Below are positions 3,976 to 24,302 of a DNA stretch of 32,639 bases, one piece after another. Position numbers and translations under genes: made by a program. A model generated the notes under the pieces. That model was not told the DNA's origin. It saw nothing but the letters and a program-made list of their open reading frames with translations, and made no database searches. Source of the stretch: a virus; IMG/VR virus record IMGVR_UViG_3300035698_025021, positions 1-32,639 of that record. The stretch is one strand, 5' to 3'. Each line of letters starts with the position of its first letter. The stretch's first letter is position 1.

Positions 3976-4089
3976 TTAACTGTGCTCAGTAAATTCACTA
4001 CCCTTTTTACAGCATTGACAGGTGTCTCTGTCAGCAGCCGCCCACTCTTTAAAGTCATCCCACCTACACGCCCCACAGAATTCTCCCAT
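3976..4089 (-). CDS. Cys-rich microprotein (37 aa), probable zinc-binding
   Basis: ATG 4089 is preceded on the minus strand by AAAGGGAGAAC at 8-base spacing, which picks this start over the longer frame running into the neighbouring repeat. The peptide has CGAC near the N-terminus and CQCC in the second half, so four or more cysteines could bind one zinc ion. The rest is Trp/Asp/Lys-rich (WDDFKEWAAADRD). The function is unknown. It follows the Gly-X repeat gene by 31 bases in the same direction and is probably co-transcribed. Confidence 0.6.
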   Translation of the reverse strand: MGEFCGACRWDDFKEWAAADRDTCQCCKKGSEFTEHS

Positions 4090-4120
4090 AATTAGTTCTC
4101 CCTTTTTTCTCTGTGTGTCA

Positions 4121-4273
4121 TCAACCAGAACCGTCACCGTAACCGTCACCGTCACCGCTACCGTCACCGGAACCGTAACCGGAACCGGAACCGTCACCGT
4201 AACCGAAACCGAAACCGGAACCGTCACCGAAACCGGAACCGTCACCACCAAACTCTTTAGCCAGCTTCGACAA
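4121..4273 (-). CDS. Gly-X dipeptide-repeat microprotein, copy 1 (50 aa)
   Basis: It starts at TTG 4273 with a strong RBS, AAGGGAGG (complement of 4280-4287), six bases upstream. The product is MSKLAKEFGG followed by 20 alternating X-Gly pairs in which X is only Asp, Ser, Phe or Tyr, ending at TGA 4121-4123. The start lies inside the last 17 bases of the DUF6948-like gene upstream, so it is probably translated by coupling. A second copy with the same head lies at 4706-4810. Low-complexity G-[DSYF] chains are disordered and can be sticky or phase-separating, but I cannot assign a function. The other two frames read as Val-Thr/Val-Pro strings and have no RBS. Confidence 0.68.
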   Translation of the reverse strand: MSKLAKEFGGDGSGFGDGSGFGFGYGDGSGSGYGSGDGSGDGDGYGDGSG

Positions 4274-4302
4274 TTTTAGCCTCCCTTAGGCTTTTGATAG
4301 CC
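4248..4302 (-). repeat. 55-bp duplicated leader/start cassette, copy 1 (partner 4785-4839)
   Basis: It matches 4785-4839 at 53 of 55 positions. The segment holds a short inverted motif (GGCT/AGCC), the AAGGGAGG RBS, the TTG start and the codons for MSKLxKEFG. Hexamer-type tandem repeats (ACCGTN, ACCGGA or ACCGAA on the plus strand) follow immediately in both copies, at about 4124-4247 and 4709-4784. Confidence 0.85.
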
Positions 4303-4643
4303 ACATCAGTCATACTCAATATCTCAATAGCCTGTAGCCATACTCTTTTTACTGGCCCACAAATTTTACTTTGGTTTTCATCGATTCCATGGGCGGCGAT
4401 ACCACTCAGCGTTATTGATACCTGCGCATGCCATCGATACATCCTGCGCGCATCCGTCAGAATTACTTCGCATCCGGCCTTTTCGGACAACTTGCCAAAC
4501 CAGACCCCGGCTGAGTAGGTTCGAATGATAACGTCTTCCCCTACTTGACCATTCAACGTTCCCCCTTTGACACTTTCCGTGCAAGTAACCATCTTTTTTA
4601 TTTCCTTAATTTGCCCTACCGTAAATTCATCTATGTTAATCAT
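4257..4643 (-). CDS. DUF6948-like phage protein (128 aa)
   Basis: ATG 4643 has AAGGAGAAG upstream. The middle reads EDVIIRTYSAGVWFGKL, then EVILTDARRMYRW, GIAAHGI and WLQAIEILSMTDVAIKS. From memory this pattern matches the phage family listed as DUF6948, whose function is not known. It is predicted mostly beta with a C-terminal helix. The stop falls 17 bases inside the Gly-X microprotein gene, whose RBS is embedded in this gene's last codons. An 11-A run (complement of about 4659-4669) lies just before its RBS. Confidence 0.75.
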   Translation of the reverse strand: MINIDEFTVGQIKEIKKMVTCTESVKGGTLNGQVGEDVIIRTYSAGVWFGKLSEKAGCEVILTDARRMYRWHAQVSITLSGIAAHGIDENQSKICGPVKRVWLQAIEILSMTDVAIKSLREAKIVEAG

Positions 4644-6534: not shown

Positions 6535-6893
6535 GTCGGTTGTCCTTTCATTATAGAAATATAGTCCTCATAAACCCTGTTCATGCTCTTGTTTTTCGTC
6601 ATTTCATTGACCTTTTTTGTCGCCGCGAGTTCGCGTTTTAAGGAATAAATCTCATGTCGCAAGTTTATGGTCTCGTTTAGGTGAATCCTCCTTGATTCAT
6701 CAAAAACCGCCTTAACTCTTTTTCCCTGAGTGACTAAATGTCCCTTTAACTCCAAAATAGTAAAAGATTGAATCCCAATCGGTATCAGAACGATAATAAT
6801 TACCATTATGTTAAAAACAATATCCGAAAATATTTCGGTTTTCTCCTGATTAATCTTCGGATATCGCTGACTATCAATTAAAATTTTGTGCAT
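6531..6893 (-). CDS. One-TM coiled-coil protein (120 aa)
   Basis: A polar N-terminus of about 23 residues precedes a hydrophobic segment (IVFNIMVIIIVLIPIGIQSF). A long charged helix with heptad spacing follows (EIYSLKRELAATKK), then the shared VNEMTKNK motif. This layout is common in small phage membrane proteins such as spanin-like or exclusion proteins. The start ATG 6893 overlaps the end of the RusA frame by 16 bases and has only a weak RBS, so it probably relies on coupling. Confidence 0.68.
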   Translation of the reverse strand: MHKILIDSQRYPKINQEKTEIFSDIVFNIMVIIIVLIPIGIQSFTILELKGHLVTQGKRVKAVFDESRRIHLNETINLRHEIYSLKRELAATKKVNEMTKNKSMNRVYEDYISIMKGQPT

Positions 6894-7197
6894 GCCCGAT
6901 CAAGCCTTTTCATTAATTCGTAATGGTCACTGTGATAAAATTTTCCGGCTTTGACTTCCCGATCATTGTCGTAAGCAACTCCTTGGAGCGCATCAGCGAC
7001 GCCTTTGAATACATTGTCTGTATCGCAACGAGTTTTTCCGGTGATAACAACTTTGAGTCCAACAGGGCCAGTAAATAACATGTCCGCACAAGCAATTTGA
7101 AATTCCGATATTTTTTGTATCCTGGATCTACCCATTTCGCCCTCTGCGTTGTTCGATAGTACGCCTTGATTATCGGGACCTTAAATGACAGTTGCAT
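6878..7197 (-). pseudogene. rusA: RusA-like Holliday junction resolvase split by a -1 frameshift
   Basis: The N-terminal part reads in one frame from ATG 7197 (MQLSFKVPIIKAYYRTTQ, then KWVDPGYKK). The diagnostic C-terminal part reads in another frame: GPVGLKVVITGK, CDTDNVFKGVADALQGV and AYDNDREV, which is the RusA signature with its acidic residues. The frames would join if the six-A run (complement of 7111-7116) were seven A. So either one base was lost, the run is a sequencing error, or the ribosome slips there. RusA cuts Holliday junctions and suits this recombination-rich phage. TTG/ATG starts further upstream (to 7230) would overlap the previous gene by 50 bases and are less likely. Confidence 0.75.
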
Positions 7198-7417
7198 TCT
7201 TATTCCGCTGAGCAGATTCGTCGTATTCATTATTAATCACTGCAAGCAAATATTTAAGTGATTTTCGTATCTGATTCCGCCCCTTCAGCCCATATTCTTC
7301 AATATACTTTTTTACAGGTGATGAGTGATACGACCCAACGGATAATGCTGCGGTTACATCCCCTGCACCCTCGCCTGGCACACTTATTCTCATCAATTCA
7401 ATGCTTTTTTTTAGCAA
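7181..7417 (-). CDS. Small hypothetical protein (78 aa)
   Basis: TTG 7417 is chosen because GGAGGTG sits seven bases upstream; the next ATG (7393 region, MRISVPGEG) has no such site. The protein has a short basic helix, a Gly/Ser-rich stretch and a helical C-terminal half (GRNQIRKSLKYLLAVINNEY), which could be a small HTH-like fold, but I see no recognised family. It overlaps the start of the RusA frame by 17 bases. Confidence 0.6.
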   Translation of the reverse strand: MLKKSIELMRISVPGEGAGDVTAALSVGSYHSSPVKKYIEEYGLKGRNQIRKSLKYLLAVINNEYDESAQRNKNATVI

Positions 7418-10272: not shown

Positions 10273-10710
10273 TTAAAACGGTGGTTCGTCGTCCGTCAAT
10301 GAATCTTGCGATTGTGGTTCGTCGCAGGGAACACCTTCCTCGTATTTGCAATATTGGGCAACATTATTTTGCAATTTGCCTTTATATTCTGAATGTTTAT
10401 TTAAAATGCGCAGGTCTTTATTAACCCAGGCATTTGAATCTATCCTGAATTTGCCCTCAAACGGTTCGCCGATTACCTTTAAAAAATGTTTAATTAACCC
10501 TTGCAGCTCCGGATGGTCGGTTAATCTGTCTTTAAGGGGTTCCCCTTGATACAATCCATCTTTGACGTGGTAACCCATTTCAACCATGTCATTTCCCGCC
10601 TTAGATTTTTTGTCCGTTACTCCAGTGATGGTTACGTTAAAGTATCCCTCCGGCAGCAATTTGAACGGTTTTTGTTCCTGAACATTTGTAAAATCCTTTT
10701 TCTTGTACAT
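10273..10710 (-). CDS. SSB-like phage protein (DUF669 type), 145 aa
   Basis: The N-terminal half (LLPEGYFNVTITGVTDKKSKAGNDM, broken here across the core beta strands) and the following GLYQGEPLKDRL, then LIKHFLKVIGEPF, fit the DUF669 family of phage single-strand-binding-like proteins. The C-terminus is acidic and ends DDEPPF, mimicking the bacterial SSB tip that recruits repair proteins. It is next to the exonuclease gene (1-base gap), as expected for a recombination module. ATG 10710 has AAAAGGAG seven bases upstream. Confidence 0.8.
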   Translation of the reverse strand: MYKKKDFTNVQEQKPFKLLPEGYFNVTITGVTDKKSKAGNDMVEMGYHVKDGLYQGEPLKDRLTDHPELQGLIKHFLKVIGEPFEGKFRIDSNAWVNKDLRILNKHSEYKGKLQNNVAQYCKYEEGVPCDEPQSQDSLTDDEPPF

Positions 10711-10711
10711 G

Positions 10712-11329
10712 TCAATCTCCTTTTAGAATAGAATTAAGAATTAATTGTTTCGTCTTTATTGTTGCATTAATTTGTTCAGCCAAACAAGCAATAAACTTTT
10801 CATCTCTGTACGTCCGAATAACGAAAAGCCCGTCATTAAATTCAATGTCGGGGTGATATGAAACAAAATCGCACCATTGCCGGCCACTAACATAAAGGCC
10901 ACCCTGTGTTTGAGCGATATACTTTGTTGGCAGTTTCCCAGCCAATAAATATTTTAAATGTGTTTTTGCTATTGGCATCTTAATTTCAATCAATCCATCA
11001 TTATCAATAAGCCCATCAGGTGAATACCCATAATTTCCGCAATCACTAATTATAAAACCGACTTGATGAACAATATTTAATGAGTATTCTTGATATGCTT
11101 GCCGCGCCGATGGTTCCAACTCGATGCCGCGTGCCATGTCATAGCTCTGAAATGATTTCTCAACTGTTGACAAAAGCACCTGTGACGCTAACTCAAAGGC
11201 AACCTCCTTTTGTGATTCGCTCCTTTTCCCAGAGCTCGTAACCACTTTTGAGAAATTTGAGGCAGATAAAACTCCACGCTTTGCCTCAAACCATTCCGTA
11301 GACCCCTGTTCCATCTCAAGAATTTTCAC
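10712..11329 (-). CDS. YqaJ/lambda-exonuclease-type 5'-3' exonuclease (205 aa)
   Basis: The protein begins with QGSTEWFEAKRGVLSAS, then GIELEPSARQAY (Glu72), YSPDGLI (Asp105) and IEIKMP (Glu115, Lys117), followed by Q-TQGGLY. This is the PD-(D/E)XK arrangement of the YqaJ family, which resects double-stranded ends for phage recombination. The start is GTG 11329: GGAGG lies six bases upstream, inside the end of the 187-aa gene. Length is typical for the family. An intact active site suggests a working enzyme. Confidence 0.9.
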   Translation of the reverse strand: MKILEMEQGSTEWFEAKRGVLSASNFSKVVTSSGKRSESQKEVAFELASQVLLSTVEKSFQSYDMARGIELEPSARQAYQEYSLNIVHQVGFIISDCGNYGYSPDGLIDNDGLIEIKMPIAKTHLKYLLAGKLPTKYIAQTQGGLYVSGRQWCDFVSYHPDIEFNDGLFVIRTYRDEKFIACLAEQINATIKTKQLILNSILKGD

Positions 11330-11879
11330 GTTGCGCCTCCTGCTGCTGCGCTTTCGCCTCTATTTGCTTAATCAACTTTTGCAGTTTAAACTGTGGAAGA
11401 TCACAAATAGATTCAATTCCATATGCGGTACAAACCTTATCTATGTCAATTTCGTGCATGAATATAAGTCCTGCTACCGCTGACACCTCATCCGCAGTAA
11501 TAAGCTTTATGTTTTGCAGTGTTTCGGATTTCTCGTTTCGTACTCGCAGGCAGTCCACTTCAACGCCACTTACTTTTGTTCGCCCACAGTAGAGCTTGAT
11601 GGCCTTCCCCTGCGCATCCTCCATGAAAGACTTGCCCGTAACTCCGCATATTGTTTGGGCATTGACCTGGTTGCAAATAAACGGCTTTACCCAGGCATGC
11701 TTCTCCTTAAACCGAACAACGCGTTTTGCCTCTGATTTTAAAATAATGGGGTTTTCCACCTCCTCCCATTGGGCAGAGTCGATTGTCAAAACAACATCTT
11801 TCCCATTCGGAAGATCCCAGTGTCCTAAATAATTTTTGTTTGGATTCTGCAACCAATGTGTCTTTGTTTTATCATTCAT
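11316..11879 (-). CDS. Recombination-module protein accompanying the exonuclease (187 aa)
   Basis: The N-terminal region (WLQNPNKNYLGHWDLPNGKD, then KRVVRFKEK, WVKPFICNQVNAQTIC and GKAIKLYCGRTKV) is a pattern I know from phage genes beside YqaJ exonucleases. A C-terminal helix rich in Gln and Lys ends the protein. No RecT, Beta or ERF signature is seen, so it may be the annealing or DNA-binding partner; that is inference. It overlaps the gene before it (ATGA) and the exonuclease gene after it (14 bases). Confidence 0.75.
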   Translation of the reverse strand: MNDKTKTHWLQNPNKNYLGHWDLPNGKDVVLTIDSAQWEEVENPIILKSEAKRVVRFKEKHAWVKPFICNQVNAQTICGVTGKSFMEDAQGKAIKLYCGRTKVSGVEVDCLRVRNEKSETLQNIKLITADEVSAVAGLIFMHEIDIDKVCTAYGIESICDLPQFKLQKLIKQIEAKAQQQEAQRENS

Positions 11880-12925
11880 AACCGATCTCCCTTAATTTTA
11901 ATCCCCTTTAATTCAATTATTGCCGCGACGAGTAGGGACTGAACGCGCTCACCTTTTCGCTGATTGATACTTGACTTAAATGAGTATTTGGTCTTAAGTT
12001 CCTCAATTTCCGAAATAAAGTCTGATATTTTCTGCGAATCGCCCTTGCTTAATTCCGCTTGAATGCGCGCCTCCTGTTCCTCCTGTTTTTTCGCAGCGTC
12101 TTGCTCTATTTTAATTAAACGCTCAGCCTCAACCACCTTTTGCTTTTCTAATTCGGCGGCAATCGCTGCAGCATTTTCACGTTCCGCCCTTAACTCGGCT
12201 TCATGTTTTTCGGTTATGGCTTTATCTGCTATTGCGCGTTGTCGTTGCTCCTCTTCAATTGCTCGGTCTCGCTCTTCGCGTTCTTTTTTCAACTTCGCGT
12301 TTTCTTTATTAATTCTCTCCCGCTCTTCCTTTGCTGCAATCTCGGCAGCGGCCCTTTCCGCTTCTGCTTTTTCCTCAGCCGTAACTTTTTCCTCATAGTT
12401 TCTTTTTTTTGTTTGAAAATAAACCTCAAAAACATCATCCGGCATTAACGCAAAATCAATCCCTAACATATCATCAACGAAAAGGAATGGCGCGATTAGT
12501 TCTGATCGCTCAACCTGAAGTTTCTCTAAACGCGCCTTTTCTTGCGTCTCGAAATAACATTCTATTTCTTTTAATCTTTCTTCTTTTCTTGAAATAGCCC
12601 ACTTTAAAACATTACTTACGCCATCAATAGCCCTCCCTGCACGCAGATATTCCTCTTTTTGTGCTTTGCGTGCCTTTTCGGTTGATATTCTAACTTTTGC
12701 GATATCCAGCCGTAATCTTTTGGCCGCGATAACCACGTCATCGGCGATATTTGCTTCTGCCTCCGCTACTATTCTGTTGTATTGCTCCTCAAAGTCTTTT
12801 AGCGTATTTGCCATCGGCACAAAGATCGCTACTATTCGATCGGCCCTGCTTTTTTCGACAACTTGCAGTTCTGGCGTCATTATTATCATTTCATTCGTCG
12901 TGTTCATTAACCGTTGTTCATCCAT
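11876..12925 (-). CDS. Long coiled-coil protein of the recombination operon (349 aa)
   Basis: After MDEQRLMNTTNEM comes a helical N-terminal domain (FVPMANTLKDFEEQYNRIVA; RLRLDIAKVRISTEKARKAQ). A small central domain follows (about 145-175), then a long Glu/Lys/Arg/Ala coiled coil (about 175-285) and a C-terminal helical cap. Similar proteins sit near phage recombinases and exonucleases; from memory the N-terminal pattern is conserved but unassigned. ATG 12925 follows AAAAGGAGGCGGGGC. The RBS and first seven codons are duplicated at the next gene upstream. Confidence 0.78.
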   Translation of the reverse strand: MDEQRLMNTTNEMIIMTPELQVVEKSRADRIVAIFVPMANTLKDFEEQYNRIVAEAEANIADDVVIAAKRLRLDIAKVRISTEKARKAQKEEYLRAGRAIDGVSNVLKWAISRKEERLKEIECYFETQEKARLEKLQVERSELIAPFLFVDDMLGIDFALMPDDVFEVYFQTKKRNYEEKVTAEEKAEAERAAAEIAAKEERERINKENAKLKKEREERDRAIEEEQRQRAIADKAITEKHEAELRAERENAAAIAAELEKQKVVEAERLIKIEQDAAKKQEEQEARIQAELSKGDSQKISDFISEIEELKTKYSFKSSINQRKGERVQSLLVAAIIELKGIKIKGDRL

Positions 12926-12941
12926 GCCCCGCCTCCTTTTT
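12905..12941 (-). repeat. 37-bp duplicated start module, copy 1 (partner 13128-13164)
   Basis: It is identical to 13128-13164 at 36 of 37 positions and holds AAAAGGAGGCGGGGC, ATG and the codons for DEQRLM. The sequence on both sides is unrelated. Confidence 0.9.
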
Positions 12942-12947
12942 CATTTT

Positions 12948-13148
12948 TTAGTTACACTGCTTTCTGGATTCTTCCGCTAACTTTTTAGCCAAATCTAACA
13001 TATATTCTTTTTGGGCGCAGACCGCCAACATTCCAAACATATATTCACCCTCAACCTCAACCCACTTTTCTACTAACTCGGCATCTTTTGGCTCTGGGTA
13101 CAGATCGGCGATCACTTCCTTCGTGCCCATTAACCTTTGTTCATCCAT
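12948..13148 (-). CDS. Small protein sharing its start with the coiled-coil gene (66 aa)
   Basis: It starts MDEQRLMGTKEV, the same RBS and first seven codons as the gene at 12925, and then diverges to a short acidic helical protein with two Cys (MLAVCAQKEYMLDLAKKL, ending QCN). It is the first gene behind the promoter at 13187-13215, so it will be among the earliest products of the leftward operon. No family is recognised. Early position, small size and acidity fit a host-takeover protein or an adaptor, but this is only a guess. Confidence 0.7.
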   Translation of the reverse strand: MDEQRLMGTKEVIADLYPEPKDAELVEKWVEVEGEYMFGMLAVCAQKEYMLDLAKKLAEESRKQCN

Positions 13149-13164
13149 GCCCCGCCTCCTTTTT
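13128..13164 (-). repeat. 37-bp duplicated start module, copy 2 (partner 12905-12941)
   Basis: This is the RBS and first codons of the 66-aa gene. See the partner at 12905-12941. Confidence 0.9.
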
Positions 13165-13186: not shown

Positions 13187-13215
13187 ATTGTCCCACATCC
13201 GCCACACGCTGTCAA
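13187..13215 (-). promoter_or_regulatory. Leftward promoter of the recombination operon, class A spacer
   Basis: Minus strand: TTGACA, a 17-base spacer and GACAAT. The spacer GCGTGTGGCG-GA-TGTGG matches that of the 8405-8433 promoter except for two bases. The start point would be near 13180, about 30 bases before the first gene at 13148. Its -35 is only 11 bases from the -35 of a rightward promoter, so the two polymerases compete. Confidence 0.8.
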
Positions 13216-13226
13216 GAAGAAAATGC

Positions 13227-13255
13227 TTTAATAAAAATAGCTTATCTGCTATAAT
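13227..13255 (+). promoter_or_regulatory. Rightward promoter of the structured RNA
   Basis: It reads TTTAAT, a 17-base spacer and a perfect TATAAT (13250-13255). The predicted start is near 13262, just before the long hairpin. It is divergent from the 13187-13215 promoter. Confidence 0.65.
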
Positions 13256-13261
13256 GAATGC

Positions 13262-13343
13262 CTTGAATATCAGGCAGCCGCTCCCCACCAGTCTCTCTTA
13301 CTTGCCCAAGTACGGAGACATGTTCATCGCGGCTGCCTTTTTT
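13262..13343 (+). ncRNA. Candidate structured small RNA (about 80 nt)
   Basis: The transcript predicted from the promoter at 13227-13255 is short and strongly folded. The outer stem is AGGCAGCCGC (13272-13281) with GCGGCTGCCT (13329-13338), 10 bp. A middle stem is GTCTC (13291-13295) with GAGAC (13315-13319), and an inner stem is TACTT with AAGTA around a GCCC loop (13299-13312). The outer stem is followed at once by six U, so the RNA ends at its own terminator. It lies between the leftward recombination operon and the methylase gene. I recognise no known RNA family. A 61-codon frame also crosses it, but its ATG lies inside the -10 element. Confidence 0.65.
13272..13343 (+). terminator. Intrinsic terminator ending the small RNA
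   Basis: A 10-bp GC-rich stem (13272-13281 with 13329-13338) is followed by T6 at 13338-13343. The long apical part (47 bases, itself folded) is unusual for a simple terminator. Confidence 0.7.
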
Positions 13344-13347
13344 ATTA

Positions 13348-13390
13348 ATAGGTGTCAAGGAACCATTCATGAAACCTACATGACACCTAT
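13348..13390. repeat. 10-bp perfect inverted repeat upstream of the methylase
   Basis: ATAGGTGTCA (13348-13357) is the exact reverse complement of TGACACCTAT (13381-13390), with 23 bases between. It lies after the small-RNA terminator and about 28 bases before the methylase promoter. It could be a hairpin, an operator or the remnant of a REP-like element. There is no T-run, so it is not a terminator. Confidence 0.7.
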
Positions 13391-13417
13391 CCTCCTTTTT
13401 CTATTACTAATCTTGTG

Positions 13418-13426
13418 TGATATTAT
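13418..13426 (+). promoter_or_regulatory. Extended -10 promoter, possibly giving a leaderless methylase mRNA
   Basis: TGA-TATTAT is an extended -10 (TGn plus hexamer) ending seven bases before the methylase ATG at 13433. Transcription would begin at or next to the A of ATG. The -35 region is weak (TTTCTA at 13398-13403). No Shine-Dalgarno sequence precedes the ATG. Confidence 0.45.
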
Positions 13427-13432
13427 TATTAA

Positions 13433-14173
13433 ATGAAATATATGGGTAGTAAAAACAAGATATCTAAAGCCATCCTGCAAATCATGCTTGCGGAGAGGAC
13501 TTTTGATCAATGGTGGGTTGAGCCTTTTGTCGGCGGTGCGAATCTAATTGATAAAGTTCCTGGCCCTCGCATTGGAAACGATAGTCATGTTTATTTAATA
13601 GCAATGCTAAAGGCTGTGCAACGCGGATGGATTCCCCCCGTTGACGTAAGTCGCGATTTTTACTATAAGGTTAAGCAGAAGCCAAACAACTATGCTCCTG
13701 AGCTTGTCGGATTTGTTGGGTTTCTATGTAGTTTTGGTGGGATTTGGCAGCGCAGTTACGCACAAGACCAGAGGTTGAGAAATTATGCAAAAATCGGTGC
13801 CAGATCCTTACTTAAACAAGCTCCTAATATTAAAGGTGTTGTTTTCAAATGCGGGAATTATCTTGATTTAGAAATTCCTAAAAATAGTCTTATTTATTGC
13901 GATCCTCCGTATGCCCGCACCTCCGGATATCCTCAAGGAATTGACCATGAAGAATTTTGGCAATGGTGTAGAAAAAAAGCGGAAGAAGGACATACGTGTT
14001 TTATAAGCGAATATTGTGCCCCAGTTGATTTTAAATGCATCCTTGAAATCCAACATTTTTCAGTTCTCGGAAAAACAAAAAGAAAACCTACAATTGAGAA
14101 GCTGTTTAGCCCCAATATCCACTATCAAAGACAGTTGTCACTTCTTCCTTGTTTTGATTTTTATTATGATTGA
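13433..14173 (+). CDS. dam: D12-class DNA adenine (N6) methyltransferase (246 aa)
   Basis: The start MKYMGSKNKI is typical of the family. EPFVGGAN (30-37) is the AdoMet-binding motif I, and CDPPYA with DPPY at 157-160 is the catalytic motif IV. Length is usual for phage Dam-like enzymes. It would methylate adenine in a short target, probably to protect phage DNA from restriction or to time packaging or replication. Specificity cannot be read from the sequence. No partner endonuclease gene is visible, so it appears to be an orphan methylase. No RBS precedes the start, consistent with the possible leaderless promoter. Confidence 0.9.
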   Translation: MKYMGSKNKISKAILQIMLAERTFDQWWVEPFVGGANLIDKVPGPRIGNDSHVYLIAMLKAVQRGWIPPVDVSRDFYYKVKQKPNNYAPELVGFVGFLCSFGGIWQRSYAQDQRLRNYAKIGARSLLKQAPNIKGVVFKCGNYLDLEIPKNSLIYCDPPYARTSGYPQGIDHEEFWQWCRKKAEEGHTCFISEYCAPVDFKCILEIQHFSVLGKTKRKPTIEKLFSPNIHYQRQLSLLPCFDFYYD

Positions 14174-14217
14174 CATAATGTGGTTATGAAACCGAATTGT
14201 ATCGCCACGTTTTTTAG

Positions 14218-14394
14218 ATGTGTCGATTGCGTAACCAGGTTAATCCGTACATCGTGTTACATAAATATATCCACAGTTTTCAATGGTCTGCGCCTGAATT
14301 GATGAAAGTTTATGGGTTCCAGTTACATAAAGTCTTGCCGAAAAGCTTCACGATTAGTGAATCTGTTGCGGCTTGGCGGCACCTACCAGGTTGA
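14218..14394 (+). CDS. Possible 58-residue protein, unsupported by an RBS
   Basis: The frame reads MCRLRNQVNPYIVLHKY at the start and ESVAAWRHLPG at the end, with a protein-like composition. No Shine-Dalgarno site precedes the ATG and no homologue comes to mind. It could be a remnant of an older gene. Confidence 0.25.
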   Translation: MCRLRNQVNPYIVLHKYIHSFQWSAPELMKVYGFQLHKVLPKSFTISESVAAWRHLPG

Positions 14395-14443
14395 TATTTA
14401 TTTACCTTCCTTGAGAATAGTTGTAGCTTCTTGACTAAGAATT

Positions 14444-14452
14444 TGGTATGAT
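14444..14452 (+). promoter_or_regulatory. Extended -10 promoter before the replication operon
   Basis: TGG-TATGAT gives an extended -10 element; transcription would begin near 14459, about 18 bases before the HTH gene. A TTGACT lies too close (at 14431) to serve as its -35, but could pair with TTAAAT at 14454. Confidence 0.4.
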
Positions 14453-14476
14453 CTTAAATGTTAACTTTAATCAAAA

Positions 14477-14662: not shown

Positions 14663-14674
14663 GGAGGGATGACT

Positions 14675-15481
14675 TTGGCACGAATACGATATCTTAAGCC
14701 TGATTTTTTTACAGATGAAGATTTGGGCGAAATTCCCTTTTCTGAGCGATTAGCTTTTCAGGGACTTTGGTTGCATGCTGACAAAGAAGGTCGGCTAGAG
14801 GATAGACCAAAATTCTTAAAAATCTCAATTTTCCCATATGACGATGATATTAATATGGAAAATATTCTTGATAACTTATGCTATGGCAAAAAAAAATTTA
14901 TTATTAGATATACCGTTTGCGAAAGAAGATATATTCAGATTTTAAATTTTCTGAAGCACCAAAAGCCGCACCATACTGAGAAGAAATCAGCTATACCAGC
15001 ATATGAGGGTGACAACTCAACCCTTAACGGTGAGTTAACCGTTAAGCCACCGTTCATAGACGGTAAATCACCGGCGTTAATGGAAAAGGGAATGGAGATG
15101 GAAAAGGGAATGGAAAAGGGAAGTGTTGTTAAAAATAAATTTTCTGAAAATTCATTGCCAGTGATGTTGGCTTGTTTTTTATTTAAAAAAATTGCAGAGA
15201 GAGATCCTCTCGCAAAACAACCAAATATTCAGGCATGGGCTTCCGTCATTGACAAGCTCATGCGGATTGACAAGAGATCTTTCCCTGAAATTGAAAAGGC
15301 AATCGAGTGGTCGCAACAAGATTCGTTTTGGAAAAATAATATTTTGTCTGCACATAAACTAAGAAAACACTTTCAAACTCTTAGTTTAAAGTCTAAATCC
15401 AGCAATGACGCTATTCAGGACGAATCATGGCGTGCCTTAGCGAACCTAGGAAAGGGGAAAATTATCGATGCTGTCACCTGA
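14675..15481 (+). CDS. Phage replication initiator (lambda O-like / replisome organizer), 268 aa
   Basis: TTG 14675 is preferred over ATG 14669: it gives the family's MARIRYLKPDFF start and puts GAGGAGGG at six-base spacing, whereas the ATG touches the RBS. The N-terminal winged-helix domain (FSERLAFQGLWLHADKEGRL, then KFLKISIFPYDDD) is typical of phage replication initiators. A low-complexity linker (repeated MEKGME) and a helical C-terminal domain (WASVIDKLMRID, then IEKAIEWSQQD) follow. The linker DNA contains phased repeats and a purine-rich tract, as in lambda O, where the origin lies inside the gene. It overlaps the next gene by 14 bases. Confidence 0.8.
   Translation: MARIRYLKPDFFTDEDLGEIPFSERLAFQGLWLHADKEGRLEDRPKFLKISIFPYDDDINMENILDNLCYGKKKFIIRYTVCERRYIQILNFLKHQKPHHTEKKSAIPAYEGDNSTLNGELTVKPPFIDGKSPALMEKGMEMEKGMEKGSVVKNKFSENSLPVMLACFLFKKIAERDPLAKQPNIQAWASVIDKLMRIDKRSFPEIEKAIEWSQQDSFWKNNILSAHKLRKHFQTLSLKSKSSNDAIQDESWRALANLGKGKIIDAVT
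15023..15157 (+). other. Putative replication origin inside the initiator gene
   Basis: Cores ACGGT/ACCGT occur at 15027, 15038, 15049 and 15060, exactly 11 bases apart, with a weaker ACCGG at 15070. The first two form a 9-bp perfect inverted repeat (CTTAACGGT/ACCGTTAAG, 6-base gap). They are followed by a purine-rich tract at 15080-15123 (ATGGAAAAGGGA-type repeats) and an AT-rich stretch to about 15157. The order iterons, asymmetric purine tract, AT-rich DNA, all in the linker of the initiator gene, parallels the lambda origin. Function is inferred from layout. Confidence 0.55.
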
Positions 15482-18548: not shown

Positions 18549-18631
18549 TTTTTGTTCCCATTTTTTGTTGTTGTTGGTGGTGGTGTTCTTGCCCATGAGT
18601 AAATTATACCGCACTCTGCGGCACATGTCAA
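18545..18631 (-). repeat. Promoter/operator/leader cassette, copy 1 (partner 17534-17620)
   Basis: This is the first copy of the 87-base cassette. The A/C-rich leader has little capacity to fold, leaving the RBS open. Confidence 0.85.
18603..18631 (-). promoter_or_regulatory. Near-consensus leftward promoter with palindromic operator (class B), copy 1
   Basis: Minus strand: TTGACA, 17-base spacer, TATAAT, both hexamers perfect. The spacer holds CCGCA-GAG-TGCGG (18609-18621). This is the strongest promoter in the window. Its -35 is 13 bases from the -35 of the late rightward promoter. Confidence 0.88.
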
Positions 18632-18644
18632 GAACTTTTTTATC

Positions 18645-18673
18645 TTGATCGCGCTCCATTACTAGGGTATAAT
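18645..18673 (+). promoter_or_regulatory. Rightward promoter of the late operon
   Basis: TTGATC, a 17-base spacer and TATAAT (18668-18673). Transcription would begin near 18680, about 80 bases before the first late gene. The leader has no obvious gene beyond an 8-codon frame at 18722. Confidence 0.8.
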
Positions 18674-18760
18674 GGTGTATGGGCTTAAACCAAGATTTTC
18701 CAGAGGAAACAGTGAGTCTTTATGAAAAATAGGAAATTTGATCGCTGAGAGGAGTGAGTG

Positions 18761-24262: not shown

Positions 24263-24302
24263 AAGCCGATAGATGAAGAAATTCGTCTATCGGCTTTTTT
24301 TT
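24263..24302 (+). terminator. Intrinsic terminator between portal and scaffold genes
   Basis: An 11-bp perfect stem (AAGCCGATAGA 24263-24273 with TCTATCGGCTT 24286-24296) has a 12-base loop and an eight-T run (24295-24302). The RBS of the next gene begins three bases later, so the scaffold/capsid genes depend on read-through, processing or an unseen promoter. Confidence 0.85.

Follow-up and report, generated by a model that had tools for sequence, protein, structure and literature searches.

We identified a candidate small RNA gene on the plus strand of an uncultured phage, at positions 13262 to 13343 of an IMG/VR virus record, and tentatively favor reading it as an independent regulatory RNA of the OOP/sar kind. 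Promoter match, fold, terminator, and position were computed from the sequence, and they give a good prediction of a short RNA of about 82 nt that ends at an intrinsic terminator of its own. The close rival is that the promoter serves the adjacent methylase gene and that the hairpin attenuates it. The small-RNA content of uncultured phages is poorly charted, and this element is a clean, testable candidate at the place where early transcription divides, in a phage without close relatives; the candidate alone changes nothing known about phage regulation.

The window, that is, the whole stretch of DNA analyzed, comprises 32,639 bases and represents a phage with two early gene blocks flanking the element. 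The annotated neighbors are as follows:

10273-10710, leftward block, single-strand binding protein
10712-11329, leftward block, YqaJ exonuclease
11316-11879, leftward block, phrog_21613 protein
leftward block, RusA-like resolvase fragment
13433-14173, plus strand, D12 class adenine methylase, the first gene downstream of the RNA, without a Shine-Dalgarno sequence
14669-15481, rightward, replication initiation protein
rightward side, terminase and portal genes

The terminase, like the methylase, lacks a Shine-Dalgarno sequence. The RusA-like signal was found in one of two overlapping short frames on the minus strand, 6878-7135 and 6913-7230, and this region (6878-7230) looks split by a frameshift or a sequencing error. 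An AT-rich non-coding gap with short repeats separates the methylase from the replication genes (14174-14458) and is a possible origin. A low-complexity repeat frame of V-T-V-P-V type on the minus strand (3976-4251) has a counterpart of G-D-G-N-G type in the distant relative L159 (L159:1021-1314); in both phages, it comes after a related gene (4257-4643 in the window; 56% identity over 82 aa in L159), so the repeats that follow this gene differ between the two.

The element itself and its immediate surroundings have the following predicted parts:

13187-13215, minus strand, leftward promoter TTGACA-17-GACAAT of the recombination-side operon, rank 2 of 65,278
13228-13255, plus strand, RNA promoter with -35 TTAATA, a 16-bp spacer, and the extended -10 TGCTATAAT at 13247-13255
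about 13260-13264, plus strand, transcription start, placed from the -10 position
13259-13276, no strand, imperfect palindrome TGCCTTGAATATCAGGCA, present once, spanning the predicted RNA start
13262-13343, plus strand, small RNA of about 82 nt, with its start placed from the -10 position and its end from the T-run
13272-13281, plus strand, 5' arm of the 10-bp outer stem
13282-13290, plus strand, accessible loop side UCCCCACCA
13291-13318, plus strand, inner hairpin of 6 bp and 5 bp with the apical loop GCCC
13320-13328, plus strand, accessible loop side AUGUUCAUC
13329-13343, plus strand, 3' arm of the outer stem and T6, an intrinsic terminator acting rightward only
13348-13390, no strand, second inverted repeat ATAGGTGTCA-N23-TGACACCTAT, perfect over 10 bp, between the RNA and the methylase

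The rightward promoter with a perfect TATAAT, claimed in a sequence-only reading of this DNA, is present at 13250-13255, where the hexamer is preceded by TGC and forms an extended -10 element; its -35 element is weak. When 65,278 positions were scored roughly with E. coli-like sigma-70 weights, this promoter ranked 5th, and it lies 16 nt upstream of the strongest fold of the window. The motif TGNTATAAT occurs once, and 1.07 copies are expected by chance; since one is thus expected per window, the motif alone is not rare, and the weight of the argument is its position directly before that fold. The rank-2 leftward promoter is predicted to start transcription at about 13180 and to drive the recombination operon, back-to-back with the RNA promoter, which agrees with the location between divergent promoters given by the same reading. 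The palindrome TGCCTTGAATATCAGGCA, the frequency of which is at chance level for the window, could be an operator or a 5' hairpin competing weakly with the outer stem. A second strong divergent promoter-like pair is located before the terminase side at 18603-18674 (-10 at 18608 on the minus strand and at 18668 on the plus strand; ranks 1 and 3), and no terminator-like fold was found after its rightward site.

The RNA is predicted to form a single long hairpin. Above its outer stem (13272-13281/13329-13338), an internal loop holds a weak 2-bp helix, and helices of 6 bp and 5 bp then lead up to the GCCC loop. Three stems of 10, 5, and 5 bp had been proposed; the outer one was retained, while the remainder is corrected to (2), 6, and 5. 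Likewise, the description of the whole transcript as folded applies to the long hairpin and not literally to the whole, because about 10 nt at the 5' end are unpaired. The T6 run reported right after the outer stem was found at 13338-13343, but its first T also closes that stem. Together, the 10-bp stem and T6 at 13329-13343 make up the terminator that had been assigned to the RNA. Comparison of 13255-13345 with shuffled sequence, proposed along with these claims, gave a folding energy of -32 kcal/mol (z -4.7), and 0 of 200 shuffles folded as well. Among 2,716 pieces of 72 nt from both strands of the window, 13272-13343 had the lowest folding z (-7.1), and the next unrelated fold was an ordinary terminator at 24265 (z -6.2). 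Terminator-type hairpins, defined by a perfect stem no shorter than 9 bp, a loop of 25-70 nt, and a T-run, were found at one place in the window versus 0.017 expected per window in Markov sequences. The opposite strand of the element folds equally strongly but without a T-run; therefore, the terminator points right only. Pair probabilities of the outer stem were 0.85-1.0 for any plausible start. A pseudoknot between the 5' tail and AUGUUCA (7 complementary bases) was rejected, being strained by connecting loops of 1 and 2 nt, and this pairing appears only as a folding intermediate.

No family of Rfam 15 matched the window at the gathering threshold, which accords with the earlier statement that no known RNA family is recognizable here, and at E values up to 5 nothing was detected on the plus strand. 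Only sub-threshold matches were obtained on the opposite strand (c-di-GMP-II, 14.4 bits versus 53.5; Chlorobi-1, 15.2 versus 50); the c-di-GMP-II likeness was discarded, its 3' part being missing. No tRNA or tmRNA was called. Searches for the RNA in phages and plasmids by blastn (E ≤ 1) gave no match, and a stem-pattern scan of IMG/VR that allowed the 47-nt loop yielded 14 stretches, none of them like the inner part. A covariance model, insensitive because it was built from one sequence, recovered only the window itself, on both strands, from 1.05 Mb of distant relatives (next best E value, 0.08) and had no match in 7 full records. No homologue with which to compare the stems was thus found in these collections. 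Protein queries (methylase, terminase, capsid, exonuclease, and phrog_21613) retrieved only distant or mosaic relatives. The nearest relative for the recombination block was L159 (51% and 47%); its record contained no match to the methylase or the replication protein, and nothing similar to the element was found upstream of its recombination block. In L159:215-337, a tRNA-like 3' half (GGTTCGAATCCTGCCAACACTAGC) can be made out by eye, together with a 5' acceptor that matches it and a long insertion; neither ARAGORN nor Rfam called a tRNA there. In another distant relative, a 472-aa frame inside the early region (L006:3858-5276) reads, by eye, like an IS66-type transposase.

Unrelated long-loop terminator hairpins occur shortly before genes in some distant phages, for example in L193 before an ERF-like gene and in L093 and L096 before a replication-type gene. 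Long-loop hairpins with T-runs before gene starts were located at:

L193:501-561
L093:5698-5745
L005:4802-4863, minus strand
L098:2128-2171

They have no sequence in common with this element, and a systematic count of 96 terminator-like hairpins included only 5 that combined a long loop with a position no more than 60 nt from a start; for these two reasons, we claim no class. The long-loop hairpins listed are possible attenuators, and some have a second terminator-like hairpin ahead.

From the features of the locus and their improbability, we infer transcription, termination, stability, and function as follows. From the strong extended -10 promoter, which stands back-to-back with the leftward early one, a transcript of about 82 nt would arise and be terminated by the outer stem and U6. 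The product would be a stable hairpin with a free 5' tail, in which the patches UCCCCACCA and AUGUUCAUC face each other across the internal loop. Its most likely action would be in trans, on early mRNAs of the phage or on RNAs of the host, to which it would base-pair in the manner of lambda OOP or P22 sar. The candidate sites are the Shine-Dalgarno sequence of the 8448-8900 gene, where GUGGGGA is complementary to the loop UCCCCAC, and the twin starts of the leftward genes 12948-13148 and 11876-12925, where GAUGAACA, just past the start codons, is complementary to UGUUCAUC. These start regions (12900-12941 and 13123-13164) are a 42-bp direct repeat with 93% identity that spans the Shine-Dalgarno sequence, the start codon, and the first codons of both genes. 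The best predicted phage target was equalled in 13% of loop-shuffled trials (P 0.13), and the pairing to the twin leaders in 18% (P 0.18); the predicted start-region targets are therefore at chance level and serve as a lead, not as evidence. Support for the independent small RNA comes from the strongest fold of the window, its rare long-loop terminator hairpin, the rank-5 promoter nearby, the one-directional T6, the firmly paired outer stem, and a coding signal weaker than that of real genes. Moreover, without a transcript that starts there and runs rightward, divergent operons would need no rightward terminator between them. Against it stand the missing homologues, the chance-level targets, the lack of an overlapping opposite transcript (unlike OOP on cII), and a downstream methylase with no strong promoter besides this one, a situation more in keeping with a leader.

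The claim that the RNA is not a leader for a gene goes further than the evidence: no Shine-Dalgarno sequence precedes the methylase, and the best promoter candidate nearer to this gene, with a -10 at 13421, is weak (rank 72), which makes read-through from the RNA promoter a live alternative. On this reading, the RNA promoter would serve the methylase, and the hairpin plus T6 would be a promoter-proximal attenuator at which most transcripts end as long as no factor of phage or host allows the polymerase to pass, the short RNA being a by-product. We regard this as possible and rank it close behind the independent RNA. It is favored by the RNA promoter being the only strong rightward one upstream of the methylase, by the missing Shine-Dalgarno sequence, by a possible weak terminator after the methylase (14177-14215, z -1.0), and by the distant phages L093 and L193, where early genes follow long-loop terminator hairpins at a distance of 25-60 nt, which leaves little room for an intervening promoter. 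However, no convincing antiterminator pairing was found that could displace the outer stem: the only competitors are weak, namely a 5' hairpin of 4-5 bp and a helix that the 5' tail transiently forms with the 3' loop side. No known antiterminator protein was detected among the scanned proteins. In addition, an mRNA from the 13421 candidate would begin with the ATG of the methylase itself, as for a leaderless gene, so that read-through across the hairpin may occur and is not required. The inverted repeat at 13348-13390 may form a hairpin or an operator pair. A combination of both functions, in which the default small RNA would pair with the twin leftward starts via AUGUUCAUC and antitermination would turn it into the methylase leader, appears very improbable; if true, one promoter would couple two divergent early programs.

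The remaining explanations are all unlikely. The 61-codon frame 13254-13436 could be a gene translationally coupled to the methylase, with the hairpin incidental or regulating it; its stop overlaps the methylase start as ATGA, and the methylases of other phages (L021 and L022) also overlap an upstream gene. Its codon score of -0.053 per codon is within the top 3% of wrong frames (-0.428 ± 0.225) but below every real 60-codon piece (0.223 ± 0.103), and thus the clear coding signal that would have spoken against an RNA element was not detected. The frame also has no family match, runs through the terminator, and starts with an ATG inside the -10 element without a Shine-Dalgarno sequence. We consider it improbable as a gene, and the ATGA overlap leaves a small doubt on its being non-coding. 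Equally improbable is a cis-acting antitermination RNA like HK022 put, the nascent form of which would bind the polymerase so that downstream terminators are ignored. The length of about 70-80 nt, the folding, the place directly behind an early promoter, and the second hairpin after it match this model, whereas the terminator U-run at the end and the one long hairpin in place of two side-by-side stem-loops within 70 nt do not. A replication element, either in the form of a transcript serving as primer or activator of replication close to the early genes or in that of a palindrome acting as DNA, would agree with the nearby GC-skew sign change and the adjoining replication genes. This role is hardly probable: the AT-rich gap at 14174-14458 is closer to the replication gene, DnaA-box-like matches were only at chance level, and the primer role has since been withdrawn for OOP itself (PMC12197685).

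Several known phage systems can be compared with the element. At the lambda pR' terminated leader, a constitutive promoter is followed by an immediate terminator in a Q-dependent arrangement. It is similar in that the promoter is followed by a terminator at once and the short RNA is a by-product before Q acts; it differs in that late genes lie downstream in lambda and an early methylase lies here, and no Q-like protein was recognized in the window. PutRNAs of HK022 are also structured, about 70 nt long, and situated behind early promoters; they have two stem-loops and cause antitermination (PMC9378689), in contrast to one long hairpin ending in a terminator. The P22 sar RNA, listed as trans-acting, and lambda OOP RNA are 68/69 and 77 nt long, respectively (PMC12197685), and their comparable size supports an independent small RNA. 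The known pairing partner of sar is the ant mRNA; here, no predicted target exceeded chance, and no ant-like gene was recognized in the window. OOP shares with the element a short terminated transcript, its own promoter, and proximity to replication genes; no sequence relation was found between them. OOP is antisense to cII, whereas 13262-13343 has no predicted transcript on the opposite strand, since leftward transcription would begin at about 13180. The only opposite gene block begins to the left of the element, leftward ORFs of at least 50 aa do not overlap it, and the antisense-to-regulator feature is absent, so we do not file it as OOP proper. In anatomy, the predicted RNA appears most like OOP or sar.
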